Under the pieces are notes generated by a model that was not told where the DNA came from, searched no databases, and worked only from the letters and a program-made list of their open reading frames with translations. Positions 10,954 to 28,345 of a DNA stretch of 53,663 bases are shown piece after piece. Within the stretch, counting starts at the first letter, position 1. Every line of letters begins with the position of its first letter. Origin of the DNA: an uncultured Clostridia bacterium (lineage in GTDB: Bacteria > Bacillota > Clostridia > Peptostreptococcales > Anaerovoracaceae); assembly GCA_944386095.1 (NCBI GenBank), contig CALWZU010000098.1, positions 1 to 53,663 of the forward strand, read 5' to 3'. The translations under genes and the position numbers were made by a program.

Positions 10954-10990
10954 GGCTCCGCACTGTTATCCTGGTGCGGAGCCCCTTTGC
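10954..10990 (+). terminator. Terminator after carB-dapF
   Basis: A perfect 10-bp GC-rich stem: GGCTCCGCAC (10954-10963) with GTGCGGAGCC (10974-10983), 10-base loop, followed by a short CCTTT tract. Confidence 0.7.
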
Positions 10991-11013
10991 CTTGTAAAAA
11001 GGGAGGAAGGAAA

Positions 11014-12399
11014 ATGGGAATTGTAGGCGCTTATGCGCTGCCGCACCCTCCTTTGATCATTCCCCAGATCGGAAAAGGGGAAGAAAAAAAGATTCAAAGG
11101 ACGGTGGAGGCATACGATCAGGCTGCAAGGGAAATCGCTTCCTGGGAGCCGGAAACCCTTGTGATCATCAGCCCTCACGCCGTTATGTACCAGGATTATA
11201 TCCACATCGCGCCGGGAGAAAGGGCTTTTGGAAGCTTTGAGTCCTTTGGATACGCCGGCGTGGGAATCGGCGTTTCCTGTGACCTGGCTATGGGAGAAAT
11301 GGTGGAAAAAAAGGCCAGGGAAGCCGGCATTGCTGCCGGAGGCCTTGGAAGGATCGATGATTCCATCGATCATGGGGGATTGATTCCCCTGTACTTTATC
11401 CGCCGGTATCTGCCGGATTTCCAGGTGTGCCGGATCAGCGTTTCAGGCCTTGGGCTTTCAGAGCATTACCGCTTCGGCATGTGCCTCAGAGCTGCGGCGG
11501 AGGCTCTTGGACGGCGGATCGCGATCGTGGCAAGCGGGGACCTTTCCCATCATTTGAAGGATTCGGGGGTTTATTCCTATACGCCTCAGGGACCGGCCTT
11601 TGATAAACGGCTGACCGATGATTTCAAAAAGGGAGATTTTATGGATTTTTTCCGTTTTTCCGAGGATTTCTGCCAGTCTGCCGGAGAATGCGGGATGAGG
11701 GGCTTTATGATGATGGCGGGCGCTTTTGAGGAAAGAAAGGTAAAGCCCCGTTTCCTTTCTTATGAGGGCCCCTTTGGGGTAGGCTACTGCGTATGTGGAT
11801 TTTTGGATCAGGGACCGGATCCTTCCCGGGGGTTTTACCGGTTATGGAAAAAGGAAAGGCGTGATGCGGCAAGGGAAATCGCCGGGAGATCGGATCCGTA
11901 TGTACAGCTTGCAAGGCGCAGTATTCAGTATTATCTGAAGGAGCGGCACACAATGGAGCTTCCCGAAGATCTGCCCTGTGAAATGAGGGAAAAACAGGCG
12001 GGGGTTTTTGTATCTTTGAAAAAAGAGGGCAGGCTCAGAGGCTGTATTGGAACCATCGAGCCTACCTGCGGCCGCCTGGGGGAGGAAATCCTTTATAATG
12101 CCGTAGGAGCCGCCATCGGAGATCCCCGTTTCCCTCCCGTGCAAAAGGAGGAGCTGGAGGAACTTGTGATAACGGTAGACGTACTGTCTGAGCCCCAGCC
12201 TGTCAGCGGACCGGAGGATTTGGATCCCCGGCGCTATGGAGTGATCGTAAGCTATGGGAACCTGAAAGGGCTTTTGCTTCCGGATCTGGAGGGGATCCAC
12301 ACGCCGCAGGAACAGATCCGGATCGCTCTGAAAAAAGCCGGGATACCCAGCGCTGTTGAATATAAGCTGAGCCGCTTTGAAGTGACGCGGCATCATTAG
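11014..12399 (+). CDS. MEMO-AMMECR1 fusion protein (AmmeMemoRadiSam systems B and A)
   Basis: 461 residues. The N-terminal part (about 1-265) is a MEMO/extradiol-dioxygenase-like domain: AYALPHPPLIIPQIG, VIISPHAVMYQDYI, IDDSIDHGGLIPLYF and ASGDLSHHLKD supply the usual His/Asp/Glu pocket. The C-terminal part (about 285-461) is an AMMECR1 domain with the hallmark LRGCIGTIEPT. The two families plus a radical SAM enzyme form the conserved AmmeMemoRadiSam set; its chemistry is not settled to my knowledge. The start at 11014 follows GGGAGG; an upstream in-frame codon lacks one. The radical SAM partner begins 3 bases after the stop. Confidence 0.9.
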   Translation: MGIVGAYALPHPPLIIPQIGKGEEKKIQRTVEAYDQAAREIASWEPETLVIISPHAVMYQDYIHIAPGERAFGSFESFGYAGVGIGVSCDLAMGEMVEKKAREAGIAAGGLGRIDDSIDHGGLIPLYFIRRYLPDFQVCRISVSGLGLSEHYRFGMCLRAAAEALGRRIAIVASGDLSHHLKDSGVYSYTPQGPAFDKRLTDDFKKGDFMDFFRFSEDFCQSAGECGMRGFMMMAGAFEERKVKPRFLSYEGPFGVGYCVCGFLDQGPDPSRGFYRLWKKERRDAAREIAGRSDPYVQLARRSIQYYLKERHTMELPEDLPCEMREKQAGVFVSLKKEGRLRGCIGTIEPTCGRLGEEILYNAVGAAIGDPRFPPVQKEELEELVITVDVLSEPQPVSGPEDLDPRRYGVIVSYGNLKGLLLPDLEGIHTPQEQIRIALKKAGIPSAVEYKLSRFEVTRHH

Positions 12400-12402
12400 A
12401 AT

Positions 12403-13266
12403 ATGGATGTAAGACAGAAAGGTATGGAAACGAAGATGGAAAAAATCAAGTGCGAAATCTGTCCCTGGGCCTGCAGCCTGCAGGAAGGCGAAAACGGCTT
12501 TTGCGGCGTTCGGGGCAACCGGGAAGGAAGGATACAGAATATCAATTACGGTAAACTGGCTGTCGCTTCTTTGGATCCCATCGAAAAAAAACCCTTAAAG
12601 CGTTTTCATCCCGGCAGCAAGATCCTTTCCATCGGCGCCAACGGATGCAATCTTCGATGCCGGCATTGTCAGAATTTCAGCTTTGTCATGGCGGCCGACT
12701 ATGAGATCGATATGATGGAAACAGATCCCCGGGAGGTGGTGGAAACGGCGCTTTCCTATCGGGACCAGGGCAATATCGGTCTTGCCTTTACCTATAACGA
12801 ACCGGTGACCATGTATGATTTTATGATGGACACCGCGAAGCTTTCCAAGGAAAAAGGGCTTTTGAACGTGATGGTCACAAACGGCTACATTAATGAAGAA
12901 CCCCTTCGGAGGCTCCTTCCCTATATGGATGCCATGAACATCGATTTGAAATGCTTTACAAACGAGGGCTATGAAAAGCTGGGGGGAAGGCTTGATGTGG
13001 TGAAACGAAGCATCGAGATCGCTCAGGCTGCCTGCCATGTGGAAATCGCCTGCCTGATCATTCCCGGAGAAAACGATTCCCCTGAAGAGATGGAGGAGGC
13101 CATGAAATGGCTTTCATCTGTGAATCCTGAAATTCCCGTTCACATCGACCGTTTTTTCCCTATGTACAAGGTGCTGGATAAGCCGCCCACTCCCATGAAG
13201 ACCCTGGAGATGCTCAGGGAGGTGGCGGAGAGATATATGAAGTATGTATTTCTGGGAAATGTATAA
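12403..13266 (+). CDS. AmmeMemoRadiSam system radical SAM enzyme
   Basis: 287 residues, PflA-like radical SAM protein. An N-terminal Cys pair region CEICPWACSLQEGENGFCGVRGN precedes the cluster-binding motif CNLRCRHCQNFS (CxxxCxxC), then LAFTYNEPVTMYDF and FTNEGYEKLGG as in this subfamily. It generates a 5'-deoxyadenosyl radical for an unknown substrate, presumably connected to the MEMO-AMMECR1 protein next door. Start is uncertain: ATGs at 12403, 12424 and 12436 are all in frame and none has an ideal ribosome binding site; tight spacing suggests coupling. Confidence 0.9.
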   Translation: MDVRQKGMETKMEKIKCEICPWACSLQEGENGFCGVRGNREGRIQNINYGKLAVASLDPIEKKPLKRFHPGSKILSIGANGCNLRCRHCQNFSFVMAADYEIDMMETDPREVVETALSYRDQGNIGLAFTYNEPVTMYDFMMDTAKLSKEKGLLNVMVTNGYINEEPLRRLLPYMDAMNIDLKCFTNEGYEKLGGRLDVVKRSIEIAQAACHVEIACLIIPGENDSPEEMEEAMKWLSSVNPEIPVHIDRFFPMYKVLDKPPTPMKTLEMLREVAERYMKYVFLGNV

Positions 13267-15103: not shown

Positions 15104-15132
15104 TTGACAAAATATGTAAATTGAGCTATAGT
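15104..15132 (+). promoter_or_regulatory. Near-consensus promoter of the Tad-like operon
   Basis: TTGACA (15104-15109), exactly 17 bases, TATAGT (15127-15132). It lies 45 bases before the first gene. No other promoter or terminator is obvious until 28.3 kb, implying a transcript of about 13 kb. Confidence 0.85.
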
Positions 15133-15176
15133 GAAAATGTAAAAAATATACAAAAATTGAAGAAAAGGGGGATGAT

Positions 15177-15632
15177 ATGAAATCGTATCAAAATGACTGG
15201 GGGACGCTCATAAGCCAGTACCAGGAAGGGCGCCGAAGGGTAGGCCGTTTTTCCAGAAATATGACAGAGGAGGGACAGGAAGAAAAAGATTTCTGGAAAA
15301 ACAGACAGGGAGAAATGGCAAAAGAAATGTTCTATGAAATGGGCGAGGCCGTTTCTCAGCTTAAATCCTATCATGCCGGAGCCTGCCGCCGGTTTCTGCG
15401 AGGGGAGGGAGAAAGGGTTCTGACCCGGCGGCAAAGGCAGGCGCTGGATCTGAAGGCGGCGGGATACAGCTATGCGGAAATGGGCAGGCGTCTTGGTATA
15501 TCCAGGACAGCGGCTTACAAGCTGTATCAGAGATGCGAAGAAAAAATGCAGGAAAACAGGCAATGGATGTTTCAAAAGGAGGTTAACAAATCCGACGGTT
15601 ATTGCCATGTCCAAAAGGAGGTTTGTCTATGA
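15177..15632 (+). CDS. HTH regulator at the head of the Tad-like operon
   Basis: 151 residues, not matched to a named family. The N-terminal 70 residues are charged and helical. Residues 82-120 (LTRRQRQALDLKAAGYSYAE, then MGRRLGISRTAAYKLYQR) form a helix-turn-helix like sigma-70 region 4 or LuxR-type domains. It has AAAGGGG before the ATG and its stop overlaps the next start (ATGA), so it is translated together with the CpaB-like gene. First position in the operon suggests autoregulation or control of surface-structure expression; this is inferred. Confidence 0.75.
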   Translation: MKSYQNDWGTLISQYQEGRRRVGRFSRNMTEEGQEEKDFWKNRQGEMAKEMFYEMGEAVSQLKSYHAGACRRFLRGEGERVLTRRQRQALDLKAAGYSYAEMGRRLGISRTAAYKLYQRCEEKMQENRQWMFQKEVNKSDGYCHVQKEVCL

Positions 15633-16288
15633 GATCGGTCAAAAAGGCGGCGGGTATTCTTTTGATGGCGGCTGCTCTGGTTATGATGATCTTTTGGGAA
15701 GCTGCCGGAAGAGAGGCTGTTTTATATAAGGATGTGGTGACGGCGGCTTTGCCCATCGAAAAAGGAACGGCCCTGACCTGGGATATGATCAAAACGGAAA
15801 AGGTACCCGCTCATTTACTGGTGGAGGGAGGGCTATCCGAGGAAATGGTTTCCGAATATTTGGGGAAAAAGGCCAATATACGCATTCCTGAAGGGCTTCC
15901 GCTTTCCTCTCTGTGGTTTTATCAAGATAAGGAGCTGATGCCGCAGGGCAGTTCGATTTATGTGATCCCATCTGAATGGATATTTTCCATGAGCAGCTCC
16001 CTGCGAAAAGGGGATACCGTTACGCTTTTAGGCAGGCAGCCCTCTGAAGCGGATTACGGCGATTATGAGGTGGCCTTTGTAAAGGATCAGCAGGGCAGGG
16101 AGGTGACAGAGCTTTCTGGCTTATCCCAGGAAAGACCTCTTTCCAGAACGGAGCCTTCCGCCCCTCCTGCCAGCATGGAAATTATCGCCACAAAGCAGCA
16201 GTACAGCCGTCTTGCGGCTGCGGCTTCAGGGGGAGAAACCTTCACAGCGGTGCACAAGGAGGAAATCTATGAAGAAGCCATACGATAA
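15629..16288 (+). CDS. CpaB/RcpC-like SAF-domain membrane protein
   Basis: 219 residues. Residues 6-25 (AAGILLMAAALVMMIFWEA) form a signal anchor, followed by a SAF-like domain (VVTAALPIEKGTALTWDMIKTEKVPAHLL; KKANIRIPEGLPLSSLWF) of the type found in CpaB pilus-assembly and flagellar P-ring chaperone proteins. The rest is an extracellular beta-rich part with a Ser/Pro linker (RTEPSAPPAS). In Tad systems CpaB acts outside the membrane. Start at 15629 follows AAAAGGAGGT and overlaps the regulator stop; the longer frame from 15602 is not supported. Its 3' end overlaps the next gene by 20 bases. Confidence 0.78.
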   Translation: MRSVKKAAGILLMAAALVMMIFWEAAGREAVLYKDVVTAALPIEKGTALTWDMIKTEKVPAHLLVEGGLSEEMVSEYLGKKANIRIPEGLPLSSLWFYQDKELMPQGSSIYVIPSEWIFSMSSSLRKGDTVTLLGRQPSEADYGDYEVAFVKDQQGREVTELSGLSQERPLSRTEPSAPPASMEIIATKQQYSRLAAAASGGETFTAVHKEEIYEEAIR

Positions 16289-17069
16289 AGTATTTGTATT
16301 TCATGGCTGCGATTATAAGGTGGGCACTACCATGACGGCCCAGGCGGCAGCGGAGCTGGCGGCAGAATGCAGAAAAGACCTGAGGGTCTTATTTTTATGC
16401 TTAAACGGCAGAGAAAGCACCAGCTATTGCAGAGAAGCAGTCAACAGCATCCAGACCATCAAGATGAAAGTGGATAACCGGCTTTTGACGCATGATGAGC
16501 TGATTCGCTGCTGCGTCCGGCAAAAGCAGCTGTTTGTCCTGGGAGGCGCTTCGGGCATTCTCAATCACCGGCATTATTCTCCTGATTTTGCCGCTTATGT
16601 GCTGGAGATGGCTGATCAGGTCTTTGACCTGATCCTTGTGGACAGCGGCAATGAAATCGACAGCGGCCTTGCGGTAGGCGCGCTGCAGATGACGGAAAAC
16701 CGGCTTATGGTTTTGGGACAAAACGAGACCCTCCTTTCCCGGATGGAGGCCTTGATGCCGATTTATAAGGCTCTTGAGCTTCGTTTCAGGGCCTATGTGG
16801 TAAACCGTTATATGGCCGATGATCCCCATGACGCCCGGTATCTGCGAAAAAGGCTGAAGCTGGAGGAGGGGGATCAGCTTATCTGCGTTCAGGATCAGTA
16901 TGGCTTTTCCCGCTATGCGGAAATGGACAAGACCACGCTGTTGGAATATAAAAATCAGGAGTATGTGGGAGGCATCAGCGAGATACTCATGTATCTGTTT
17001 GAAAAAGCAGGTATAGAGGGCGGGGTGGAGATCCGTTCCAAAAAGAAGCTGCCCTTTGGGAAATGGTAA
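16269..17069 (+). CDS. CpaE/TadZ-like MinD-family protein with altered P-loop
   Basis: 266 residues of ParA/MinD fold. The P-loop position reads HGCDYKVGTTMTAQ (12-25), where MinD has KGGVGKTT: both the signature and the catalytic lysines are missing from their usual places, although a Lys (17) is present one step before V-G. Then come LRVLFLCLNGRES, FDLILVDSGNEIDS (Walker B-like, Asp) and RLMVLGQNETLLSRM. In Tad systems CpaE/TadZ places the machine at a cell site and often has degenerate motifs. Start at 16269 with AAGGAGG upstream; overlaps cpaB-like gene. Next gene starts 11 bases after its stop. Confidence 0.78.
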   Translation: MKKPYDKVFVFHGCDYKVGTTMTAQAAAELAAECRKDLRVLFLCLNGRESTSYCREAVNSIQTIKMKVDNRLLTHDELIRCCVRQKQLFVLGGASGILNHRHYSPDFAAYVLEMADQVFDLILVDSGNEIDSGLAVGALQMTENRLMVLGQNETLLSRMEALMPIYKALELRFRAYVVNRYMADDPHDARYLRKRLKLEEGDQLICVQDQYGFSRYAEMDKTTLLEYKNQEYVGGISEILMYLFEKAGIEGGVEIRSKKKLPFGKW

Positions 17070-17080
17070 AAGGAGGAAGC

Positions 17081-18604
17081 ATGCAGAAATTTTATCTGGA
17101 GGATTATCTGAAAAAGGAAGAGGAAATCCGGGAAGAGGGCTATAGCGAAGAGGAAATCCAGGACAGGTTTCAAAAGCTGTGTAACCGGATATATGAAAGC
17201 TTTGAAGCTGAATGGAGCGGGGAGCAGGAGGGTCTTGGAAGCCTTCTTGATCTGCAGAAAAAAGCCATTATCGGTTACGAAAAAGAGGTGGCTTTTTTCA
17301 TGGATAAGATCCGGGAATACCTCAGGAGAACCGGAGAGGAAAACATCCTTTATCCTTCCTATTACAATTCTCCCGAGGAGGGAGTCTACCATGAAAATTG
17401 GGGGCTTGCAGGCCTTGCCCAGTGGTTTCACGAGGATTACCGGCAAAGCAGCTCGGCTAAAATCATAGGAGAGAGGATCTATTTTATGGAAGAGGGGCGG
17501 ATGGTTTTAAAAAAACAGCGCATCAGCCGCAGCAGGCGGGAACAGCTTGTGAGAGCGCTGATGCTCAGGACGCCGGAGGAAAGGCTGGATCAGGATTTTC
17601 ATGAGCTGTATCTTCTTGATGGAACCAGGATCACCATTTACAGCGATCAGCTGACGAAAAAGGGGCAGGATGCGATCATCTTCCGGCGTTATATCGTTCC
17701 GGAATATTCCTTTGAAGAACAGGCAAGACGCCATACGATTCCAAAGGAAGGGATCGAGCTTTTTCGGGAAATGGTAAAAATAGGCTATAATACTGTGTTC
17801 CTGGGATCCGTACGCTCCGCCAAAACCTCTTTTTTATCCACCTGGCAAAGCTATGAAAATGAAAAGCTGGAGGGGGTCATGGTAGAAACTGATCCGGAAA
17901 TACCCCTTCATCACATTATGGAAAAAGCGCCTATCATACAGATCGTAGCGGATAACCAAAGGCTCAGCCAGGTTTCCAAAAACCTGCTTCGTTCTGACGC
18001 GGATTATTTCATACTGGCAGAGGCAAGAGACGGAACGGCTTTGGATCTGGCGGTACGAATCGCCAATAAGGGCTCCCGCAGGATGAAAATGACCTTTCAT
18101 TCCTCTGATCCAATGGAATTTTGCTATGATGTGGCAAATGAAATCACAAGAAGCGTAGCCAACGCAGATCTGAAGGCGACCACAAGAAAAGTGGCGAAAA
18201 GCTTTCATTACATTTTTCATTTTGTCCAGCTTCAGGATAAAAGCCAGAAAAGATTAAAAGGCATTTATGAAATTCAAAGCAAGCCGGAAAAGGAGGATTT
18301 TCAGATCATACAGATCTGCCGTTATCGCTATGAAACCGATGACTGGCAGTGGCGCTATCGTATCGGAAAGGACAAGGCCGTGATCGGGCAGGAGGAGGAT
18401 CCCCGGGCTTTCCAGGCTTTTGACCGGCACTTGCAGGCCCTGGCCCAGGCCTATCCTATGGAACGGGAAGCAAAGGAGGTTGGGGAAGAAAATGAAAAAA
18501 CCGGCTATGGCCTTGAGGAAAAGGAAGATAAAAAGGAAGGAAAGGAGGAAGAATGGGAAGTTTCTATTGGCAGCAGGCTGTCAGTATCGGACTATACGGC
18601 CTGA
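17081..18604 (+). CDS. CpaF/TadA-like secretion ATPase with Ala in Walker A
   Basis: 507 residues. An N-terminal helical domain precedes a type II/IV secretion ATPase core. Walker A reads GSVRSAKTS (242-250), with Ala247 in place of the invariant Gly before Lys248. The Walker B region is DYFILAEARDGTALDL (Glu314), and the His box region is MKMTFHSSDPMEF. Arg residues in RRYIVPEYSFEEQARR fit the family's nucleotide pocket. The C-terminus is a Lys/Glu-rich tail that overlaps the next gene by 52 bases. It should power pilus or secretion assembly from the cytoplasmic face. Start 17081 has AAAGGAGG 5 bases upstream, better than the ATG at 17063 inside the previous gene. Confidence 0.85.
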   Translation: MQKFYLEDYLKKEEEIREEGYSEEEIQDRFQKLCNRIYESFEAEWSGEQEGLGSLLDLQKKAIIGYEKEVAFFMDKIREYLRRTGEENILYPSYYNSPEEGVYHENWGLAGLAQWFHEDYRQSSSAKIIGERIYFMEEGRMVLKKQRISRSRREQLVRALMLRTPEERLDQDFHELYLLDGTRITIYSDQLTKKGQDAIIFRRYIVPEYSFEEQARRHTIPKEGIELFREMVKIGYNTVFLGSVRSAKTSFLSTWQSYENEKLEGVMVETDPEIPLHHIMEKAPIIQIVADNQRLSQVSKNLLRSDADYFILAEARDGTALDLAVRIANKGSRRMKMTFHSSDPMEFCYDVANEITRSVANADLKATTRKVAKSFHYIFHFVQLQDKSQKRLKGIYEIQSKPEKEDFQIIQICRYRYETDDWQWRYRIGKDKAVIGQEEDPRAFQAFDRHLQALAQAYPMEREAKEVGEENEKTGYGLEEKEDKKEGKEEEWEVSIGSRLSVSDYTA

Positions 18605-19497
18605 TGGGCTTTGGCTGGTATTTGGTGTTTGGGGAAATTGTCAGATCTTATTACCGGCGAAGGCAGCGCTCCCGGCTTCTTGAAAGTAAAAAGGCATCCT
18701 TGTGGAAGGGCCCCTTTTTCCATCATCTGACCATGGTGGTAGAAACGGCTTCCGGCGGAAAAATCACATTGAAAGGATTTGTTATAATAGAGGGATTTCT
18801 GGCCTTTGTGCTGTTTTTGACCACCTTTTCTACCGCCGGGGCGGGGGCTGTGTTTCTTTCCGCAGCAGGGGTGGTTTTTTTATTCGGTATTTTCCGTCTC
18901 CGGCTGGAGTCCATGAGATACCGGGGCAGCAATGAAGCGGAGGATCTGGTTTCATGCATTTTACATCATTACAGAAGCAGCCACTGCAATATTTTAGAAG
19001 CTCTTGACCTGACTGTGAAGGGAAACGAGCCAGGTATCAAAATCACAAAAAAAGCCTTGTTCCGGCTTTTGATGTCTCTCAGGGGCGCTAAAAGCAAGGA
19101 GGAGCTCAAAAGCGCCGTAGAGGCTTTTGCCTTTGGGATCCGAACCAACTGGAGCAGTATGCTCAGCCAGTGCATTTTCGCGGCTGCGGGAGAGGGAATC
19201 AACATTACGCTGCCTCTTGAGGATATCATCCAGCAGCTGAAGGCGGCCAGATCTTTGGCGGAGGAAAGAAAACGGCTCAACGCCGAAAGCACGAGGCTTA
19301 TCCGATATTTGATCCCCCTTGCCTACGGTCTTTCCCTGGTGGTTTCGGTAAAGTATCTGGGATTGTCTCCGGGGGATCTGATCCGCAATCAGTTTTTCAC
19401 CCAGGCCGGATTATGGATGTTTCTTTTGATTTTGGCCCTGGGACTGATCAATTTTATGCTGGTGGAAATGACAAAGGCAGGGAAATTCGATTACTGA
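18553..19497 (+). CDS. TadB-like inner-membrane platform protein
   Basis: 314 residues with hydrophobic segments near 10-30, 75-115 and two at the C-terminus (LIRYLIPLAYGLSLVVSV; LWMFLLILALGLINFMLV), framing a cytoplasmic helical T2SSF-like domain that contains CILHHYRSSHCNILEALDL. This layout matches TadB platform proteins that work with the CpaF ATPase. AAGGAGG precedes the ATG, and the start lies inside the ATPase gene's 3' end, pointing to translational coupling. Confidence 0.8.
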   Translation: MGSFYWQQAVSIGLYGLMGFGWYLVFGEIVRSYYRRRQRSRLLESKKASLWKGPFFHHLTMVVETASGGKITLKGFVIIEGFLAFVLFLTTFSTAGAGAVFLSAAGVVFLFGIFRLRLESMRYRGSNEAEDLVSCILHHYRSSHCNILEALDLTVKGNEPGIKITKKALFRLLMSLRGAKSKEELKSAVEAFAFGIRTNWSSMLSQCIFAAAGEGINITLPLEDIIQQLKAARSLAEERKRLNAESTRLIRYLIPLAYGLSLVVSVKYLGLSPGDLIRNQFFTQAGLWMFLLILALGLINFMLVEMTKAGKFDY

Positions 19498-19510
19498 AGG
19501 AGGTGATGGG

Positions 19511-20155
19511 GTGAGCATATTGCCTGTAATGGTGTTGTGTCTTTTTTTGGAGCTTGGCATGTTTTTGTATTTTTTTCCAAAAGGAATGCTCGGATGGAGC
19601 CCAAGTGGGAAAAGAAAGGTCAGGAGGCTTTTGGAGGGAATCAAAGGCAGGCTTTTCAACGGAAGCCGCAGACGAAAAAAACGACAGCTGCAGATGGAAA
19701 ATGAGATTTATCAAAGCCTGATACTTTTGAAAAACATGGCGCTTTTACAAAAAAACGCGCCCAAGGGAGGAATCTATATTTTAGAGCAGCTGATCCCCTA
19801 CACCAGGCTGCTTTCCCAGCCTCTTCAAATGATGCTGCATTATATGAGGCTCAACCGTCCTGAACAGGCCCTGGATGCTTTTTGCCGCCTGGGAGATACC
19901 AAATCCGCAGAGCGCTTTGGAAGACTTCTGATCAGGATGGATGAGATCCCTCCCGGTGATTTGCAGCAGACCCTGGAGCTTTACAGAAGCAATCTCAGAG
20001 AGGAGGCCCTGACCCGGGAAAAACAGAAAAACGAGCTGCAAAGCGATCTGGTCTATATTCCGGTTATGGGAAATGTCATGCTGATTTTTATAAATTTTAT
20101 TTATGTGGCCTACTATGCCCAGCAAAGGGATATGTTCCGGCAGCTGTTTATGTGA
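19511..20155 (+). CDS. TadC-like platform protein (short)
   Basis: 214 residues, shorter than typical TadC (about 290-320). N-terminal membrane helix (LPVMVLCLFLELGMFLYFF), a basic stretch (SGKRKVRR ... GSRRRKKR), a helical cytoplasmic domain, and a C-terminal helix VYIPVMGNVMLIFINFIYVAYYA. Order after TadB and gene spacing support a TadC role. GTG start with AAGGAGGTGA upstream. The similarity is by architecture rather than by clear motifs. Confidence 0.65.
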   Translation: MSILPVMVLCLFLELGMFLYFFPKGMLGWSPSGKRKVRRLLEGIKGRLFNGSRRRKKRQLQMENEIYQSLILLKNMALLQKNAPKGGIYILEQLIPYTRLLSQPLQMMLHYMRLNRPEQALDAFCRLGDTKSAERFGRLLIRMDEIPPGDLQQTLELYRSNLREEALTREKQKNELQSDLVYIPVMGNVMLIFINFIYVAYYAQQRDMFRQLFM

Positions 20156-20219
20156 TCTTTCCGGGGATTGCAAGCAGAAAACCCGCCGGGAAAAACAAAG
20201 TGATAAAGGAGGAAAACAA

Positions 20220-20360
20220 ATGAAAGAGGTAATCGTTATTTTTGCAACCGTCGTACTGGGAATCGCCATCGCAGGCTTTGTCATGAATCTGGAGGAGACC
20301 GCGCAATCCGTCACCGATAAAATCGGATCGGACGTAACCACAATGCTCAGTGAACATTAG
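20220..20360 (+). CDS. Tiny pilin-like membrane peptide 1
   Basis: 46 residues: MKEVIVIFATVVLGIAIAGF then a short polar tail ending MLSEH. It begins directly with a hydrophobic helix, as Flp-type pilins do after processing, but has no leader peptide and no Gly-x4-Glu-Tyr cleavage motif. Strong AAAGGAGG before the ATG. The position between TadC-like and TadE-like genes is where Flp/pseudopilin genes sit. It shares its N-terminal pattern with the next three gene products. Confidence 0.75.
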   Translation: MKEVIVIFATVVLGIAIAGFVMNLEETAQSVTDKIGSDVTTMLSEH

Positions 20361-20369
20361 GAGGAAAAA

Positions 20370-20516
20370 GTGAAGCAGATCATCGTTCTTTTTGCCATGG
20401 TGGGTCTTGGGCTCACCATTTATGGCTTTTTGATGGGAAGCGGACAGGATACGGTATATACAAGCGTAAAGGGCCTTTGGCAGGAGCAGATCCAGCAGCA
20501 AAAGCAGTTTCCCTAG
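20370..20516 (+). CDS. Tiny pilin-like membrane peptide 2
   Basis: 48 residues beginning at GTG (VKQIIVLFAMVGLGLTIYGF), with a Gln-rich tail (WQEQIQQQKQFP). TAGGAGGAAAAA directly upstream supports the GTG start, 9 bases after the preceding stop. Same N-terminal pattern as peptide 1 (K-x-hydrophobic-I-V). Probably a second small pilin or membrane subunit; no known family recognised. Confidence 0.75.
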   Translation: MKQIIVLFAMVGLGLTIYGFLMGSGQDTVYTSVKGLWQEQIQQQKQFP

Positions 20517-20531
20517 GAAGGAGGGGATGTT

Positions 20532-20945
20532 ATGAAGCAGGTGATCGTACTAATGGGGATCCTGCCATTTTTGATGGTTTTTATGCTTCAGTATGGGGTG
20601 GAGCAGCAGAATCATTATAAGCTCAGCCAGCTTCAGCAGTTTGTTTATGAAGCCAAGGAGCAGGCGAAACAGGATGGCTGCTTCACGGCAAAAAACATCG
20701 AAACGCTGCGGGAGCGAATCGCCGCCGGGATCAAGATCCCCCGGGAGGAGATCCTGATTGAAGCGACAACTACCCCCAAATACAGAGTCAACGGCTTTGA
20801 TGAAAGGGAAATGATCCATTACAAGGTGCAGGTGCCTATCGATAATCTGATGGCAGGCGCTTCTTTTTTTGGGATCGATAAAAAGGAAAACAGGATGCTT
20901 TATACGATTGAAAATGTTACAGCAAGCGAGCTGATCGGCTTATGA
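20532..20945 (+). CDS. TadE-like pseudopilin protein 1
   Basis: 137 residues. N-terminal helix MKQVIVLMGILPFLMVFML followed by an extracellular domain with one Cys (AKQDGCFTAKNIETLRERI), resembling TadE/TadF minor pilins: a long amphipathic helix after the membrane segment, then beta strands. AAGGAGGGG precedes the ATG. Its stop overlaps the start of the next gene (ATGA). Assignment rests on architecture and context. Confidence 0.7.
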   Translation: MKQVIVLMGILPFLMVFMLQYGVEQQNHYKLSQLQQFVYEAKEQAKQDGCFTAKNIETLRERIAAGIKIPREEILIEATTTPKYRVNGFDEREMIHYKVQVPIDNLMAGASFFGIDKKENRMLYTIENVTASELIGL

Positions 20946-21349
20946 AGCTTTTGATCGTATTTATGGCCCTTGTCAGTCTGAACCTGATGTTTTTGATTTA
21001 TCAGGGGGATATGAATCGTTTTATCCGAGTCCAGTCCGAAATAAAAAGCATCGCGGAGGAATGCGCCGCCGGAGCCAGCCTGTATTATGACGAAGAGGCC
21101 TTTTCCCAAGGCTATTATCTGTATGACAAGAAAGAAGGAAAAAAATATATCGATTATGTTTTGGCCCGCACCTTTAAACCGCCTCTTCAGTGCAGCTATC
21201 AGATCCATTACAGGGAAGGGCCTGAGGAACCGGATCCGGGTATACAGCTCCTTTTGACGGTCCGGGGAAGGGACTGGTTCCGCCTTGGTTTTTTGCGGGT
21301 GGAGGAAATCAAAAGAGAGGCGTTTTATGAACAGAAGGGCTATGGATGA
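20942..21349 (+). CDS. TadE-like pseudopilin protein 2
   Basis: 135 residues. N-terminal helix MKLLIVFMALVSLNLMFLIY, then an amphipathic helix (MNRFIRVQSEIKSIAEECAAGASLYYD) and a beta-rich end. Translationally coupled to the preceding TadE-like gene by a 4-base overlap. The Glu-rich helix after the membrane segment is common in minor pilins. No prepilin cleavage site is visible. Confidence 0.68.
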   Translation: MKLLIVFMALVSLNLMFLIYQGDMNRFIRVQSEIKSIAEECAAGASLYYDEEAFSQGYYLYDKKEGKKYIDYVLARTFKPPLQCSYQIHYREGPEEPDPGIQLLLTVRGRDWFRLGFLRVEEIKREAFYEQKGYG

Positions 21350-21377
21350 GAAAAATAAACAAACAGGGAGGAAGCTA

Positions 21378-22475
21378 ATGAGACCATTTCGCAAAAGACA
21401 CGCCCCAGCCTTTTTGATCCTTGTCATCGTAACCGGCCTGATTCTCTCGACAACACACTCTTTTGGTTATGATGATCTTAAAAAGGATCACTGGGCATAT
21501 GAGCAGATCCACCAGATGAGCCGGCAGGGGATTCTTTCCGGTTATCCGGACGGAACTTTCCGGCCGGACAGGCAAGTGACCTATGGGGAATTTTTAAAGA
21601 TACTTTATATGGCAAAAGGAGAAGAAGCCCTTGACCTTGCTCCTTCTCCCGAGCACTGGTCCAGAAATTATTATGACAAAGCCCTGTCTTTTGGCTGGAT
21701 GACCAGGGCGGATTTCCGATTTACGGCCTTGGATCAGCCTATACCCAGAATGCATATGGCTCTTTTGATATGGGGGGTTTTGCAGCAGGCAAAGGGAGAA
21801 TCTGCACAGGAGGCTTTGGAGAAGGAAGGCCGGGATGAGAGGGAGGAAAAAGGTATAGGGGATTTTATCGACGTGAATGAAAAAACGCCCTATTGCTTTG
21901 AGATAGAAGAGGTATTCCGTTATGGGATCCTTTCCGGCTATCCTGACGGAAGCTTTGGGCCGGGAAAAACCCTGACAAGGGCAGAGGCAGCCACGGCGGC
22001 GGGCAAACTGATCCAGGAGCTGGAAGATATCTCAAAAAGCCAGGGAACAGAGTCCGAAAAAAAGGAAGCCCACGCCGATGGGGAAGAAAAAAAGGAAGAG
22101 GCTGCAAAAACCAAATCCGAAAAGAATGCTGATTGGAAGGATTGCCCTTTGCCTGAGAAAACCGTCAGGGATATCAGCGGACCTTATCCGGTACTGTCCT
22201 GGAGGCTTGTTACGGAAAAGGAATATCCTTTGCAAATACAGAAAGAGAACAATATCACTTATCTTCTGGCAGAGGGGATCACCCACGGGCTGCATTTTTT
22301 CAGAGAAGGAAGTATCAGAGAGGATGCCGGGGCAAGCCAGCTTTACAGCCCCTCCCAAAACCTTTTGATGGTCGTTCTAAAAGAGGATGTGGGCCAAATC
22401 GATTATTTTGTCATCGCGCCTCAGACAAAAGAAGGAGAAGCTTTGATTATGGAAAATCCATACAGGAAGGAATGA
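21378..22475 (+). CDS. Exported protein with three SLH domains
   Basis: 365 residues. Signal peptide (MRPFRKRHAP then a hydrophobic core LILVIVTGLILS). Three S-layer-homology domains: about 32-80 (HWAYEQI ... GILSGYPDGTFRPD), 88-135, and 162-212 (GILSGYPDGSFGPGKTLTRAEAA). SLH domains bind pyruvylated secondary wall polymer, so this would tether something to the cell wall. A Lys/Glu-rich linker (about 216-250) leads to a C-terminal domain I do not recognise. The start at 21378 has GGGAGG 6 bases upstream and gives a clean signal peptide; upstream in-frame ATGs overlap the previous gene. It probably anchors the pilus or the giant protein that follows. Confidence 0.85.
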   Translation: MRPFRKRHAPAFLILVIVTGLILSTTHSFGYDDLKKDHWAYEQIHQMSRQGILSGYPDGTFRPDRQVTYGEFLKILYMAKGEEALDLAPSPEHWSRNYYDKALSFGWMTRADFRFTALDQPIPRMHMALLIWGVLQQAKGESAQEALEKEGRDEREEKGIGDFIDVNEKTPYCFEIEEVFRYGILSGYPDGSFGPGKTLTRAEAATAAGKLIQELEDISKSQGTESEKKEAHADGEEKKEEAAKTKSEKNADWKDCPLPEKTVRDISGPYPVLSWRLVTEKEYPLQIQKENNITYLLAEGITHGLHFFREGSIREDAGASQLYSPSQNLLMVVLKEDVGQIDYFVIAPQTKEGEALIMENPYRKE

Positions 22476-25400
22476 TGGTTATGAGGGGATTTGATCATTT
22501 GTTTTTTTGCAGAAAAGCAAAAATGGTTTCAGCCGCGATCCTTCTTTTTCTGCTTTTTTTTACAGGCGGCTTTGGAAGGGAGGCCATCAAGGCTTTCGAA
22601 AATCCCGATGAAAGAGAAGCCGCCTCTTTCGCTCCCAAAACGTGGTATAAGCTGGTGACCGCCGTTATCTTTATATGGGGGCAGCAAACCGGCGGCGATG
22701 ACACCTGGAGCCCCGCAAGACCGGGAGAGGGCGTGTTTTATGAAAAACACACCGGCTACAGCTTTGAGCATGTGGGAGAAGGAACCGTTACAAGAGTGGA
22801 AATGTATCCCTACACTCCCCAGAGGCTGGATCTGGATGATGAAGACCTGGCGATAACAGGCTTTGGGGGAAGCGCAGGCGCTTATGAGGAGCAATTTTAT
22901 CGCTATGGCTCCCGGCAGATCCATCTGAAAAACAGCGCGGTTTCAGGAAACAGGATTTCCTATACCTGGGAGGCGGAGCTTAAGGCCAATGAGTCCTTGA
23001 TGGACGTGACAGAGCTGATGCAGACAGAGGCGGGTCTTGCCATCATCCGGGATGATATCATGGGAGGCTATGTGCCGCAGGAAATGCAGGCGTATCTGGA
23101 CAGTGTCAAAATACTCGGGCAGGATGTAGGCGCCTATCTTTTATTTGTGCCCTATGTCATAGAATATGATGTGCTGCCCCCGGGAGGGACAGCTCCGGAG
23201 GAGGAAACGGATCCGCCGGAAGAAGAGGAAGATATTCAAAAGCCTCAGGAAATCCCGATTTCCGCGACGGCGAAGCTGTCCCTGCCTCAAAAGGCCTACC
23301 TGGGCCATGACATCCTGGCGGAGGATGAATCTGTAATAGAATACGAAAACCAGATCTATGGCGCCCAGAGAGCTTATGAAATGGGTCTTGGCTCGGGTTC
23401 TTTACGTTTTCCCTCGGAAAATCCCAGCAAGCGGGAGCGTCTCAGTCCATCCCGCTATCTGCTCAGTTTTGAAAACACCGGAGAAAAAACCGTATCCCTG
23501 CGGCTTAGATTAAAGGATGGGAGCGTATTGACAGATGAAAAGCAGATACAGATTCTGGATACGCCCCATGCCCAGGGATATCTTTCCGGCAGTCAGAAAG
23601 AAAACCGTAAACAGCTCCTTCATATCAGCGTTGCCCAGAATCCTCAGGCCCCGGTCAAGGAAATACAGGTCAGGCTGATTTGTGAAGAAAAAGGGGAGGA
23701 AGTAACGCTTTTTCATAAAGCTCTCTCCGGAGGCAAAAATGAAAAGGCAAACAGCGACCATATTAAGACCCGTCCCATCGAAGCCTGCCCCTCCGATGAA
23801 GAATGGATATACTGCCAGCTTCCCTTTTTAACAAAATTTTCTGAAAAAGTGGATATGAAATGGGAAATCCTGGCCCGGGACAGTCTGGGAAAATCCTCAG
23901 TGGCATCGGGAAGCTTTCAGGTCTTGCCGGATATCCCCCCTGATGCGCAAATCAAACTGGAGCCTGTTTTTTACAGGGAAAAGGGCTCTGATACAGCTTT
24001 GATTTCCGTAGAGGACGTTTCGGTTACGGATTCAGATCAGCTTTCCCGAAGCTGGAGTTTTTCTTTTGATAAAGGAAAGACCTTTTTACCCCTGGAACAG
24101 ATCGAAAATTGGGCGGATCTTTCTTTTGGCAGCGGAAAACAGGTGCAGATCCCTAAAGAGGGGGTAGGAGAGGTCTATGTCAGGCTTTCCGTAAAGGATC
24201 AGTGGACAGAGGAAACCCTGGAGGAATATGTTTCCCAGGAGGATTATCTGACAGACCAGGCGGAGGGAAAAACAGTCGTGGATAATATGGCCCCCTATGT
24301 TTCCTTCACAGCCCGAAAGGCGCAAAAGGCGGATTTTCTGATCCTTCCACAGACAGGGGAGGAAGAGGAGCTGGCTGAAAAAGTAAAGGAGGAGATACAA
24401 AAACGATCCAAGCAAAAGGGCTTTGACAGCCGCGTTTACATAGAAGCGCTTCCCGGGGCAGGGGAAAAAAATCATTTTCAGGCGCAGCTCAGGGTCGATA
24501 CCCCAAGCGGTTATCAGGTAAACTGGACAAGCTATGAGGATGAAAATTTTATCGTGGACAATCAAAGGCTGTATAAGCTTGACGCCACCTGGGAGGAGGG
24601 GGTAACGGACGCTTATCCCAAGGGGCCCTACAGGATCTCCGCCTGGCAGGTGATGGGAGAAGAAAATGAAAAGGGAAAGGAAGAGCCTTTATGGAGCTTT
24701 CCCTTTGACGAACAGCTTTTGGATCCTTCCGGGACCGGGGAGGGAAGCTTTTATTTCGGCCAGGACGATCAAGGCCTTTATTTGTTTCTTGTATGCCAGG
24801 GAAAAACGCTGGTGCTAGAAAAGGAAAAGGGGAATCTTTTAACAGTGCTTCCCTTTACAGTGGGAAGAGAAAATTATGTTTACGATCAGGCGATCTACAG
24901 CATGACCCAGGAGGGTATCCTGAAAATCAGCCTGCTGGATGGAAAAAAAGAGATCATCAGCCAGGATCCGGTCCAGGGAAGCACCAGACGTTTTCAGGGG
25001 AGGATCCATTATCTGACCCAGGATGGAAGCATACCGTATATGTGCTTTTTCGATCCCCTTTCCGGACAAAAGGGCCGCTATGCTCTTGAAGAAAGCTCCG
25101 ATGCGCCCGGAAACAGCAGCTACACCTGCGGAGGCATCGATTCGGAGGGAAACTTTTTCATAGTGCGCTCTGAAATACAAAAGGCTGTTTCCATGGGCGT
25201 TTTCGGACAAAAGGGGGTTTTACTCAAAAAGACGGAGCTGAATCCCTCGTCCAATTGCAAAGCCGCTCCCGTAGCGGATGAATCCGGGATATTTACCCAC
25301 ATGGCAAGCGCTTATCTGAGCAGCTCCCGGTCATCCTCAGGGAAAAGAAATTACTATACCTATGCCAGAGTCTATGCGCTTGCTTCTGATAAAAGCCTTT

Positions 25401-28345
25401 CTGTCCAGGAGCGAAGCAGCTCTGATTATCCATCTACAGACAGGATTCTTTATACCGCCTGTTTAGAGGGGATCGTTTATGTGAACACAGGGGCGGAATA
25501 CGTTTACGTTTGGCAAAGCGGAACCGGTATTTATGAGCAAAGAGCCAGAAGCTATCAGTTTGATCTTGAAAAAGGGACCACTCAGATCGAAAAATCCTTT
25601 GGCCTTTGGACAGGCTTTGGAAATCATGGGGAATATTCCCGGATCAGCGAGGCGTTTTTCGCGATCCAGTCCAGCGTGGGAAATCCTTCCTATCACAATC
25701 AGAAGGGCAGCGAAACCATGGTCGTGCAAAAAATAAAAACCCTTCCTGTTATGCAAAATCAGTATCGCAATAAATACTTTGCTCCAAAGCAGGAGGACAG
25801 GATCCAGGTCTTGGTTGATCTGCAAAACTGGCAAAAACAGCTTTCGGAAACCTTTGATCAGGATGAAAAACAGCAGGGCGCACTCCAGGCAACCGCTTCC
25901 AAAGGGACACAGGGAAGCCTTTCCCGCACTCTTGGATTGCAGCCGGCAACCACATACTATTATGAATACCGGCAAAAAGGGACAAGAGAGGATTCTCTTG
26001 TTTTGGAGCATCAGGTGCAAAGAAAGGATCAGACGCTTTCAGAAGGAAAAGACTACAGGGTAGAAAACAGTTTTTCGGAGGATTTTAACGACAGCGCCGT
26101 CCATCCTTTTTTTGATGTCCCAGAGGAAAGGATTATCCAGGGGCGGCTTCGGGGCGGTCACAGCCAGGGCTATGGTTCCTCCAGCAAGCTGTATTCTGAC
26201 AGCAGCAGCCTTTCCTTTGAAATAGAGCCGGGAAAGCAGGGGATTTTGTCCTTTGATTATCACATTTTGCGCGACAGGGAATATGAGCTTTCCAACTATG
26301 TGTCGATCGACGGCTCACCCTGGCTTTTGCATACCCAAATAGAAAATGATAAGACCCTTCATTATACCCATCCTTATATTCTGTCCGAAGGAAAGCATAC
26401 GCTGGAAATTTTCGCGGGAGGCTATGGGAACAAAAACAGCAGTTCTTCTACCTTTATCGACAATCTCAGATTGGATTACATAAAGAGTACAGATGATGTT
26501 GAAAAAGAAGGCTTTTTACAGAAAACAGAGAATATTTCTCCTCTGGAGGATGGATGGTACCAGGTAAGGGGAAGCTTTCAGACTCCCTTTGAAGTGAATG
26601 GCTATGAAGGCATTCAGGGAGAATATATAAGCGGATCGCCGGGCGCTATACCTTTTGCGAGCCTGGATAACAGCAAAACAAACCGCAGCTACCTGGATGT
26701 AGCCCTTCCGCCGGAAAAAACCGCCGCTTATATGGCCATAGGGGTGTCCACCTCGGTAGGAAAGGATTATTCGGTTACCTATCGCAATCCCTCCCGGGAC
26801 GAAAGCTGGCGCTGCTATGGAGATGTTTCCCAGCATCCCTTTGGCATACCAAAGCAGTACCGTATCCTTATGCCATCCGAAGGGGTGAGGGATCAGGTTT
26901 CCCTGGAAGTGACCTATTCTCAGAGAAGAGGAACCAGAGGAAGCTTTACGGGGCTTGAGCTGTTTTTGGTCGATGAGATGTCTCAGACTCTGAAGGAAAG
27001 GCGTTTTTTCATCGATAAAGAACAAGGAAAGGCCTGCGGAGAAACTCAGCTGTATGAGGGAGAAAGCCGCCTTTCCCTTTTGATACCCCAGGATGAGACC
27101 GTGGAATTTCAGGATTTGAGGATCTATTGCATTAGGGAGGGCCAGGCTCAGGAGGTGCTTTTCCTTAAAATGGATGAGGCAGAGGGCCTTGAAGGCTGGG
27201 AAACAGAATCCCTTCATGTGGATTATACTTTTGATAGCAGGCAGGAGGAGAAACCGGCAATCCCCGTTTTCCAAAAAGGGGAAATGCTCGTTTATGACGT
27301 CAGCTATTACGATCATGAAGAGGATCCTTCAAAAGCCAGCTTCTGGGAATATGTCCACCAGCCTCTGCCGGGGGGCGAGCTTCATCCGGAAAGCGGGAAA
27401 ATCCTCGCAGAGCCCATAGAACGTTTTTACCTGGAGGGCAAATATACCCTGACCCACTGGCAAAGGGACGATACCACAAGAGGGAAAACAGAAGGGGGCG
27501 ATCCCCGTTATGATAAGGATTCCAATAAAGCCGTATTTACCTTTTACGTGCAGTCTCAGCCATCGGAAGGTGTGCCCTGGATCCGTTATATCAGGACTGA
27601 TCCCGCTGTTGTGGAAAAGGGAAAGCCCTATGAGATTCTCATACGCCCCGATGACGAAGAAAAGGATCCCCTGGCGCTTTCGGTAGAGCTGTATTACGAA
27701 AAGGAAAGGATCAAAACCCTGAAAAAAAAGGATATCAGAGCCTCCGGTTCCGGAGAGTATCCCGAAATTACCATGAAGGATCTGCCTCTGCCAAAGGAAG
27801 GTCTTTACACGGTGATATGCCGTATCAGCGATCAGACCGGCTCATCTGTTAAGGAGGCTGTTTTTACGGTAGCCGCCTCTTATACATCATCGGGGATGGT
27901 CCATCATACGCCTGTTTGGGATCAAAACCGGAAGCGTTACAATCTGAAACGCTTTGGCAGCACCACAGATGAGATTATGGCTTTTTCCTCCTATATCCTT
28001 AAATCCCATCCAAGGCTGAGGGGTCTTAACGTTTTTTGGTCAGGGGAAGCCTTTGTTCTTTCCGCCCAGACAGATCCCCAGGTTCAGCAGGTAAGCGTCC
28101 GGATCAGGGAGTATCCGTCCTATCAGACTTTTCTGGAAAAAGGAGCCCTTTCTCAGGAGGGGGCAAGATCGTGGAAAGGGCAGCTTTGGGAGTCGTCTAT
28201 GATCGATCTTTGGGGGAAAAATGAGCCGGAGCTTTTAACCTTTGTTTTTACCGGTATACAGGGGAAGCAGGAAAGTGTATTTGCGCAAATCCCCATCATC
28301 ATGGATACAAAGGACAGCTATTGGCAGCTGCACAGGCTCTTTTAA
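22472..28345 (+). CDS. Giant exported multidomain surface protein (1957 residues)
   Basis: Not matched to a named family. N-terminal signal or anchor (KMVSAAILLFLLFFTGGFG), then an acidic Pro/Glu linker near 240-262. Ig-like beta regions lie around 340-600. A beta-propeller-like stretch of repeated short strands is near 760-1070. A jelly-roll/MAM-like segment with FNDSAVHPFF and a closing TFIDNLRLDYI covers about 1200-1336, and an Ig-like domain about 1700-1805 (DPAVVEKGKPYEI ... GLYTVICRISDQTGSS). No C-terminal membrane helix, LPxTG or SLH. Domain edges are estimates. ATG at 22472 overlaps the SLH gene stop; 22475 or 22481 fit the AGGAAGG better. Last gene of the operon; likely the adhesin, tip or cargo of the machine. 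Confidence 0.85.
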   Translation: MMVMRGFDHLFFCRKAKMVSAAILLFLLFFTGGFGREAIKAFENPDEREAASFAPKTWYKLVTAVIFIWGQQTGGDDTWSPARPGEGVFYEKHTGYSFEHVGEGTVTRVEMYPYTPQRLDLDDEDLAITGFGGSAGAYEEQFYRYGSRQIHLKNSAVSGNRISYTWEAELKANESLMDVTELMQTEAGLAIIRDDIMGGYVPQEMQAYLDSVKILGQDVGAYLLFVPYVIEYDVLPPGGTAPEEETDPPEEEEDIQKPQEIPISATAKLSLPQKAYLGHDILAEDESVIEYENQIYGAQRAYEMGLGSGSLRFPSENPSKRERLSPSRYLLSFENTGEKTVSLRLRLKDGSVLTDEKQIQILDTPHAQGYLSGSQKENRKQLLHISVAQNPQAPVKEIQVRLICEEKGEEVTLFHKALSGGKNEKANSDHIKTRPIEACPSDEEWIYCQLPFLTKFSEKVDMKWEILARDSLGKSSVASGSFQVLPDIPPDAQIKLEPVFYREKGSDTALISVEDVSVTDSDQLSRSWSFSFDKGKTFLPLEQIENWADLSFGSGKQVQIPKEGVGEVYVRLSVKDQWTEETLEEYVSQEDYLTDQAEGKTVVDNMAPYVSFTARKAQKADFLILPQTGEEEELAEKVKEEIQKRSKQKGFDSRVYIEALPGAGEKNHFQAQLRVDTPSGYQVNWTSYEDENFIVDNQRLYKLDATWEEGVTDAYPKGPYRISAWQVMGEENEKGKEEPLWSFPFDEQLLDPSGTGEGSFYFGQDDQGLYLFLVCQGKTLVLEKEKGNLLTVLPFTVGRENYVYDQAIYSMTQEGILKISLLDGKKEIISQDPVQGSTRRFQGRIHYLTQDGSIPYMCFFDPLSGQKGRYALEESSDAPGNSSYTCGGIDSEGNFFIVRSEIQKAVSMGVFGQKGVLLKKTELNPSSNCKAAPVADESGIFTHMASAYLSSSRSSSGKRNYYTYARVYALASDKSLSVQERSSSDYPSTDRILYTACLEGIVYVNTGAEYVYVWQSGTGIYEQRARSYQFDLEKGTTQIEKSFGLWTGFGNHGEYSRISEAFFAIQSSVGNPSYHNQKGSETMVVQKIKTLPVMQNQYRNKYFAPKQEDRIQVLVDLQNWQKQLSETFDQDEKQQGALQATASKGTQGSLSRTLGLQPATTYYYEYRQKGTREDSLVLEHQVQRKDQTLSEGKDYRVENSFSEDFNDSAVHPFFDVPEERIIQGRLRGGHSQGYGSSSKLYSDSSSLSFEIEPGKQGILSFDYHILRDREYELSNYVSIDGSPWLLHTQIENDKTLHYTHPYILSEGKHTLEIFAGGYGNKNSSSSTFIDNLRLDYIKSTDDVEKEGFLQKTENISPLEDGWYQVRGSFQTPFEVNGYEGIQGEYISGSPGAIPFASLDNSKTNRSYLDVALPPEKTAAYMAIGVSTSVGKDYSVTYRNPSRDESWRCYGDVSQHPFGIPKQYRILMPSEGVRDQVSLEVTYSQRRGTRGSFTGLELFLVDEMSQTLKERRFFIDKEQGKACGETQLYEGESRLSLLIPQDETVEFQDLRIYCIREGQAQEVLFLKMDEAEGLEGWETESLHVDYTFDSRQEEKPAIPVFQKGEMLVYDVSYYDHEEDPSKASFWEYVHQPLPGGELHPESGKILAEPIERFYLEGKYTLTHWQRDDTTRGKTEGGDPRYDKDSNKAVFTFYVQSQPSEGVPWIRYIRTDPAVVEKGKPYEILIRPDDEEKDPLALSVELYYEKERIKTLKKKDIRASGSGEYPEITMKDLPLPKEGLYTVICRISDQTGSSVKEAVFTVAASYTSSGMVHHTPVWDQNRKRYNLKRFGSTTDEIMAFSSYILKSHPRLRGLNVFWSGEAFVLSAQTDPQVQQVSVRIREYPSYQTFLEKGALSQEGARSWKGQLWESSMIDLWGKNEPELLTFVFTGIQGKQESVFAQIPIIMDTKDSYWQLHRLF

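Follow-up and report, generated by a model that had tools for sequence, protein, structure and literature searches.

Type IV pilins are defined by a leader peptide, and its removal is treated as a necessary step for type IV filaments (PMC10191384). Here we describe an operon, located at positions 15177-28345 on the forward strand of a 53,663-nucleotide stretch of DNA from an uncultured Clostridia bacterium (the window, meaning that whole stretch), which is related to the Tad/Flp pilus and encodes four pilin-like proteins that start without such a leader. Its last two genes code for a wall-anchor protein with S-layer homology (SLH) repeats and for a giant exported protein. The analyses suggest, with a probability that we put at roughly 0.52, that the operon represents a Tad-derived machine of the type IV filament kind, conserved in Bacillota, which uses leaderless pilin-like subunits and has the SLH/giant pair as a dedicated surface client.

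The monoderm Tad/Flp pilus (type IVc pilus), of which the same genome carries an example (G000:C22), shares with this operon CpaF, CpaE/TadZ, CpaB/RcpC, putative platform and TadE-like proteins, a similar gene order and the lack of a secretin. However, the present CpaF is ~22% identical in a profile alignment and forms a fully supported group of its own, two small pilin-like genes replace the single Flp gene, no leader precedes any of the four pilin-like proteins, TadV is missing from the operon and the SLH and giant genes appear as partners. The Kil Tad pilus of Myxococcus xanthus, which has exchangeable tips, likewise combines a Tad machine with variable large surface-acting proteins (PMC12075869). 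Peptidase sites are predicted in the Kil tips, which are themselves pilins (PMC12075869), whereas the N-terminus of the present giant looks like a Sec signal and a pilin helix is absent from it. Type IV pilins (PMC10191384) resemble the four small proteins in their N-terminal hydrophobic helix anchor and small extracytoplasmic part, and differ in the Gly- or Ala-ended leader that is absent here. SLH-anchored surface proteins offer a likeness in the N-terminal SLH repeats and in the CsaB-type pyruvyl transferase encoded in the genome, but the SLH part here is a separate small protein beside the giant and not a domain of it. No description of leaderless pilins or of the present gene set was found in the open-access literature, subscription papers and preprints being outside the search. 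The closest possible trace in that literature was Paenibacillus NAIST15-1, which has Tad-like genes without a recognisable pilin and showed no motility defect when pili-related genes were deleted (PMC5072692).

The four pilin-like genes were pep1 (20220-20360, forward strand, 46 residues, MKEVIVIFATVVLGIAIAGF...), pep2 (20370-20516, forward, 48 residues), the TadE-like putative minor pilin TadE1 (20532-20945, forward) and TadE2 (20942-21349, forward). In the window, their products begin with MKEVIVIFATVV, (V)KQIIVLFAMVG, MKQVIVLMGILP and MKLLIVFMALVS, respectively, and ribosome-binding sites (AGGAGG for pep1) or translational coupling were found directly 5′ of the four starts. The start codon was followed by Lys and then by the hydrophobic helix, with no leader, in 312 of the 318 different sequences that the four profiles tagged, and the six exceptions were mostly wrong-frame or unrelated open reading frames. 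Specifically, the start-Lys-hydrophobic arrangement applied to 74 out of 76 tagged pep1 sequences and start-Lys to 92 out of 93 of pep2, while M1, K2 and Q20 were invariant in the TadE1 alignment (A5) and M1 and K2 in that of TadE2 (A6). As a control, all 16 canonical Flp proteins of the same group carried a Gly-ended leader of 7-17 residues before the mature Met-Glu, and 28 out of 32 canonical TadE-like proteins presented a Gly/Ala-xxxx-Glu type pattern. The preliminary description of this DNA had listed two tiny peptides and two TadE-like proteins, all of which are present, and had overlooked that all four lack leaders. We also considered, and rejected, signal peptidase I as an enzyme that might cut the small proteins: an AxA motif near the helix end occurred in 32 out of 75 pep1 sequences but in 2 out of 92 of pep2, 0 out of 84 of TadE1 and 2 out of 66 of TadE2, and was thus not shared.

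Comparisons within the set showed that pep1 and pep2 are homologues (profile-profile 99.3%) and that the N-terminus of TadE2, a TadE/TadG-like protein, resembles that of TadE1 (profile similarity 86%). The AlphaFold2 model of TadE1 (predicted local distance difference test score 92) presented a continuous helix from residue 2 to 48 followed by a small beta head, so the general architecture of the modelled protein is that of a pilin whose head would be extracytoplasmic. A Pro was found at residue 12 of TadE1, one position off from the Pro at residue 11 of mature canonical TadE.

The remaining machine proteins, all on the forward strand, gave weak family support in single-sequence Pfam searches and stronger support with family-level profiles. 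The single-sequence searches returned nothing convincing for TadB, the two small proteins, the TadE-like proteins and the giant. The CpaF/TadA-like ATPase (17081-18604) matched Pfam T2SSE at 0.003 by itself, and 17 out of 28 members of its alignment (A1) matched the same family. The nearest Protein Data Bank (PDB) sequences to the A1 profile were those of CpaF (8rjf/9e24, 3.4e-9), and divergent and canonical CpaF were related at 99.5% in profile-profile comparison. The Walker A of this ATPase reads GSVRSAKTS, and it keeps the invariant K248 and E314/R316, as seen in the A1 alignment. In a quick tree of 52 CpaF sequences, a single branch with support 100 split 31 divergent from 21 canonical members. 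The CpaE/TadZ-like protein (16269-17069) was assigned to the ParA/MinD family by its profile A8 against the PDB (ParA family 1.4e-9, MinD 2.9e-8); it carries a deviant Walker A (KVGTTMTA) and its counterpart was unrecognised in some diverged loci. The SAF-domain CpaB/RcpC-like protein (15629-16288) matched Pfam SAF above the cut-off (8.1e-6) and TIGR03177 weakly, and its gene position was kept in nearly all loci. Among the platform proteins, the TadB-like one (18553-19497) reached 91.8% in profile-profile comparison with canonical TadB of the same group, although none of its 20 family members matched Pfam T2SSF, while the short TadC-like one (19511-20155) presented a weak T2SSF match (0.004) and profile-profile values of 57-64%. 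The initial view of a divergent Tad relative is supported. By sequence, the operon combines genes for an ATPase of the CpaF family, a CpaE of the ParA type, a CpaB of the SAF type, two membrane proteins of the platform type and four leaderless pilin-like proteins.

The SLH wall-anchor protein (21378-22475, forward; Pfam SLH 1.6e-24) has a signal-peptide-like N-terminus and a unique C-terminal part. It is followed by the giant (22472-28345, forward), which comprises 1957 residues, as first described, or 1954, depending on the choice among three ATGs. The same C-terminal domain was found in the giants of relatives, proteins of 1.3-2.3 thousand residues. This domain (27860-28342, forward) spans ~145 residues in an alignment of 31 sequences (A2), with YWQLHR-x-aromatic or a close variant at the very C-terminus, and its AlphaFold2 model presented a beta-sandwich and a short terminal helix. 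Pfam searches on five giants gave no domain above the cut-off and only weak PKD/CARDB/Big-like matches, and Foldseek on the last 430 residues of the giant returned only generic Ig-like arrays with low TM-scores. In more than 20 loci, the SLH gene immediately precedes that of the giant, whether near the operon or not, indicating a fixed pair. Read by eye, the N-termini of both proteins resemble Sec signal peptides, so their export across the membrane would need no Tad machine. SLH-type wall anchoring of surface proteins is plausible in this host, since its 1.7 Mb genome (128 contigs, 94% complete) encodes 44 SLH repeats over roughly twenty proteins, one in a 2786-residue open frame at C40, together with a PF04230 pyruvyl transferase of the CsaB type.

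Distribution analyses connected the pair with the machine. Divergent CpaF, counted as present at E below 1e-30, was found in 62 out of 148 relatives, mostly of Family XIII/Anaerovoracaceae, and a phylum-wide sample of 398 genomes yielded five more. Named hosts were Clostridiales Family XIII/Anaerovorax-type bacteria, Sinanaerobacter, Clostridium aminobutyricum and Bacilliculturomica and, more distantly, Paenibacillus tyrfis. Most loci retained the order SAF-CpaE-CpaF-TadB-TadC-pep1-pep2-TadE1-TadE2; since the same order recurs in dozens of genomes, the arrangement is more than chance. Searches with a single sequence and with a profile both placed the giant C-terminal domain in 34 of the 148 relatives, and a more sensitive profile added no further genomes among them. 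Divergent CpaF accompanied it in 33 of these 34 genomes, compared with 29 of the 114 others (p = 1e-14; p = 1.4e-6 within the family alone), and the one genome lacking it, G043, is 83% complete. Similarly, after exclusion of the host genome itself from the phylum sample, divergent CpaF was found in 4 out of 5 genomes with the giant domain and in 1 out of 392 others (p = 2e-8). These p-values are inflated by relatedness, although the phylum sample spans several families.

The separate CpaF group, the leaderless starts, the TadE1 model, the co-occurrence and physical linkage with the giant and the plausible SLH anchoring speak for our reading, and several observations weigh against it. TadE1 reached only 32% against canonical TadE in profile-profile comparison, with the Pro aligned, and Foldseek of its model against the PDB gave no match with E under 0.1. 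The similarity of pep1/pep2 to canonical Flp was not significant (0.7-1.1%), so their assignment as pilins and filament subunits rests on size, position and topology. Moreover, the pilin-like protein of G169/G366 starts with MKKDAISTGLF, which may hide a short leader, and a Met-Lys start is also common among ordinary Sec substrates. Finally, 29 of the 62 genomes with the machine have no giant domain. As the giant is almost never found without the machine, the dependence is one-way when judged from genome content: the giant needs the machine, while the machine does not need the giant. Because a leader was looked for and not found, and the small proteins are at most putative Flp counterparts, we do not class the system as an ordinary Tad pilus; it probably works like a Tad system and descends from one.

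We infer that the machine forms a filament and takes part in the display of the giant. The pilin-like proteins would insert through Sec as N-in single-helix proteins, and CpaF, TadB and TadC could then lift them from the membrane with no prepilin peptidase, given that only Met-Lys precedes the helix. In such a filament, pep1 and pep2 would build a short shaft and TadE1 and TadE2 its tip, and SAF/CpaB may guide it within the wall zone. Sec would export both the giant and the SLH protein, each of which has its own putative signal peptide; the SLH protein may bind a pyruvylated secondary wall polymer, and the giant may use its conserved C-terminal domain to dock either to the tip or to an SLH collar. 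The machine could thereby position, push out or retract a long adhesive arm at the S-layer. That Bacillota have a whole peptidase-free class of type IV filament-type machines, with subunits made in mature form and a Sec-exported giant displayed via a C-terminal docking domain and an SLH collar, is a tentative proposal to which we give somewhat less than even odds. If true, the prepilin peptidase step, regarded as universal, would be dispensed with, and a function class would be assigned to giant surface proteins of 1.3-2.3 thousand residues without a Pfam domain. It could also explain Tad genes found without a pilin by homology search, such as those of the Paenibacillus strain mentioned above.

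The alternative that survives best, although we consider it unlikely, is that no filament is made. The four leaderless proteins would remain membrane-bound and serve as a scaffold or piston, and the ATPase and platform would act as an envelope motor or as an aid to secretion of the giant, close to the exporter proposed in the preliminary description. The missing leader and the retained Met-Lys could indeed block extraction from the membrane, shaft subunits of 46-48 residues would be very small, and the strict co-occurrence of giant and machine would be expected as well. However, the TadE1 model is pilin-like with an extracytoplasmic head, the machine is retained in many genomes that lack the giant, and the signal-peptide-like N-termini of the giant and the SLH protein make export by the machine less economical than export through Sec. 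Between a leaderless filament and such a motor, four leaderless pilin-like genes would either break the peptidase rule or point to a motor of Tad descent that has given up pilus formation, and both alternatives are directly testable in cultured species carrying the system (Clostridium aminobutyricum, Sinanaerobacter, Anaerovorax and Paenibacillus).

A further alternative is an ordinary Tad pilus whose Flp and prepilin peptidase are supplied in trans. The divergent operon contains no prepilin peptidase/TadV, classical Flp or secretin, as had been noted for this locus, and no secretin (PF00263) was detected in the whole genome either, as expected for a monoderm. The first two absences are true of the operon but not of the genome, where a lone A24 prepilin peptidase is encoded at C67 (and in 137 out of 148 relatives) and a single Flp1-like pilin at C22, the only place with PF16982 matches. 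Peptidases can be exchanged between systems (PMC6668835), and a peptidase and an Flp encoded elsewhere and serving this operon were what the preliminary description had named as contrary evidence. Both exist, but the C22 Flp bears a leader and belongs to a canonical Tad operon that has CpaF, TadB-type and TadE-type genes of its own, while the divergent operons encode their own pilin-like set, which offers no leader or cleavage site. We therefore regard supply in trans as improbable.

Still less probable is a bystander role for the SLH/giant pair, in which a common surface protein of these bacteria would merely happen to adjoin the operon. Both pair and machine are concentrated in one family and, in most relatives, the pair sits elsewhere in the genome than the operon. 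However, the co-occurrence described above was repeated in the phylum-wide sample, including Paenibacillus-like genomes, and physical linkage to the operon, on either side of it, occurs in the window and in L041, L066, L126, L061, L164, L218, L258, L259 and L260. In L164, the pair lies upstream of SAF; in L218, from P. tyrfis, the giant is cut by the locus end and its C-terminus is not seen; and in L258 and L260 (G169 and G366) proteins of 752-753 residues stand between TadE2 and the giant, in place of the SLH gene. Since the linked loci fall on both deep and shallow branches of the CpaF tree, the genes were probably linked early and became separated in most of the family. The association of SLH and giant genes with Tad genes, proposed from this window, was therefore upheld by the fixed pair, the co-occurrence and a linkage that recurs in P. 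tyrfis and three other distant genomes. Lastly, a DNA-uptake or twitching pilus unrelated to display of the giant is similarly remote: a Tad locus of Micrococcus luteus functions in transformation (PMC6668835) and NAIST15-1 also has pilin-less Tad-like genes, but motility was unaffected by the deletions in that strain (PMC5072692), whose locus was not compared with the present one, and the giant association also speaks against it.

The block contains 12 co-directional genes, rather than the eleven first counted, in the order HTH, SAF/CpaB, CpaE, CpaF, TadB, TadC, two small proteins, two TadE-like proteins, SLH and giant. The order, coordinates and tight packing stood as originally reported: intergenic distances ranged from -52 to +64 bp, with 4-bp overlaps at the HTH/SAF, TadE1/TadE2 and SLH/giant junctions. 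The near-consensus promoter placed ahead of the block was also recovered, as a sigma-70-type TTGACA-17-TATAGT sequence (15104-15132, forward; 11/12 match) that ranked best among the 17 sites of the region in a consensus scan, this number of sites not being above that of shuffled sequence (14.0 +/- 4.2). The first gene codes for a helix-turn-helix (HTH) protein with a sigma-70 region-4-like domain (15177-15632, forward; PF08281, 4.3e-6); it appears lineage-specific, heading the operon otherwise only in the closest relative, L076.

Other large surface proteins were found directly after the operon in relatives without the pair, for example one of 1941 residues in L064. In a subgroup with 40%-identity CpaF (L065, L067, L068 and L073), large exported proteins (883-2274 residues) are encoded downstream of the operon or close to it, and some of these end in a sortase-type signal (VPKTG), possibly representing a different surface client; the 883-residue protein of L065, directly after the operon, ends in a VPKTGD-type sorting signal. 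In L044, from Sinanaerobacter chloroacetimidivorans (G065:C23:393000-412000), and in L177, the divergent operon is followed downstream by another SAF-CpaE-CpaF set. The interval between the two encodes a pair of Gly-rich exported proteins and a stand-alone giant C-terminal domain of 289 residues, and an A24 peptidase is encoded nearby. L129 (G035:C174) and L130 (G042:C55) encode proteins of 173-296 residues, mostly giant C-terminal domain, directly upstream of the SAF gene.

Upstream of the operon, the window contains at 6858-10904 a single frame of 1348 residues that reads as the large subunit of carbamoyl-phosphate synthase followed by a DapF-like diaminopimelate epimerase, an apparent CarB-DapF fusion judged from its sequence only. 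Two adjacent genes at 10987-13266 read as an AmmeMemoRadiSam set (a MEMO/AMMECR1 fusion and a radical SAM protein) and are ordinary neighbours of the operon.

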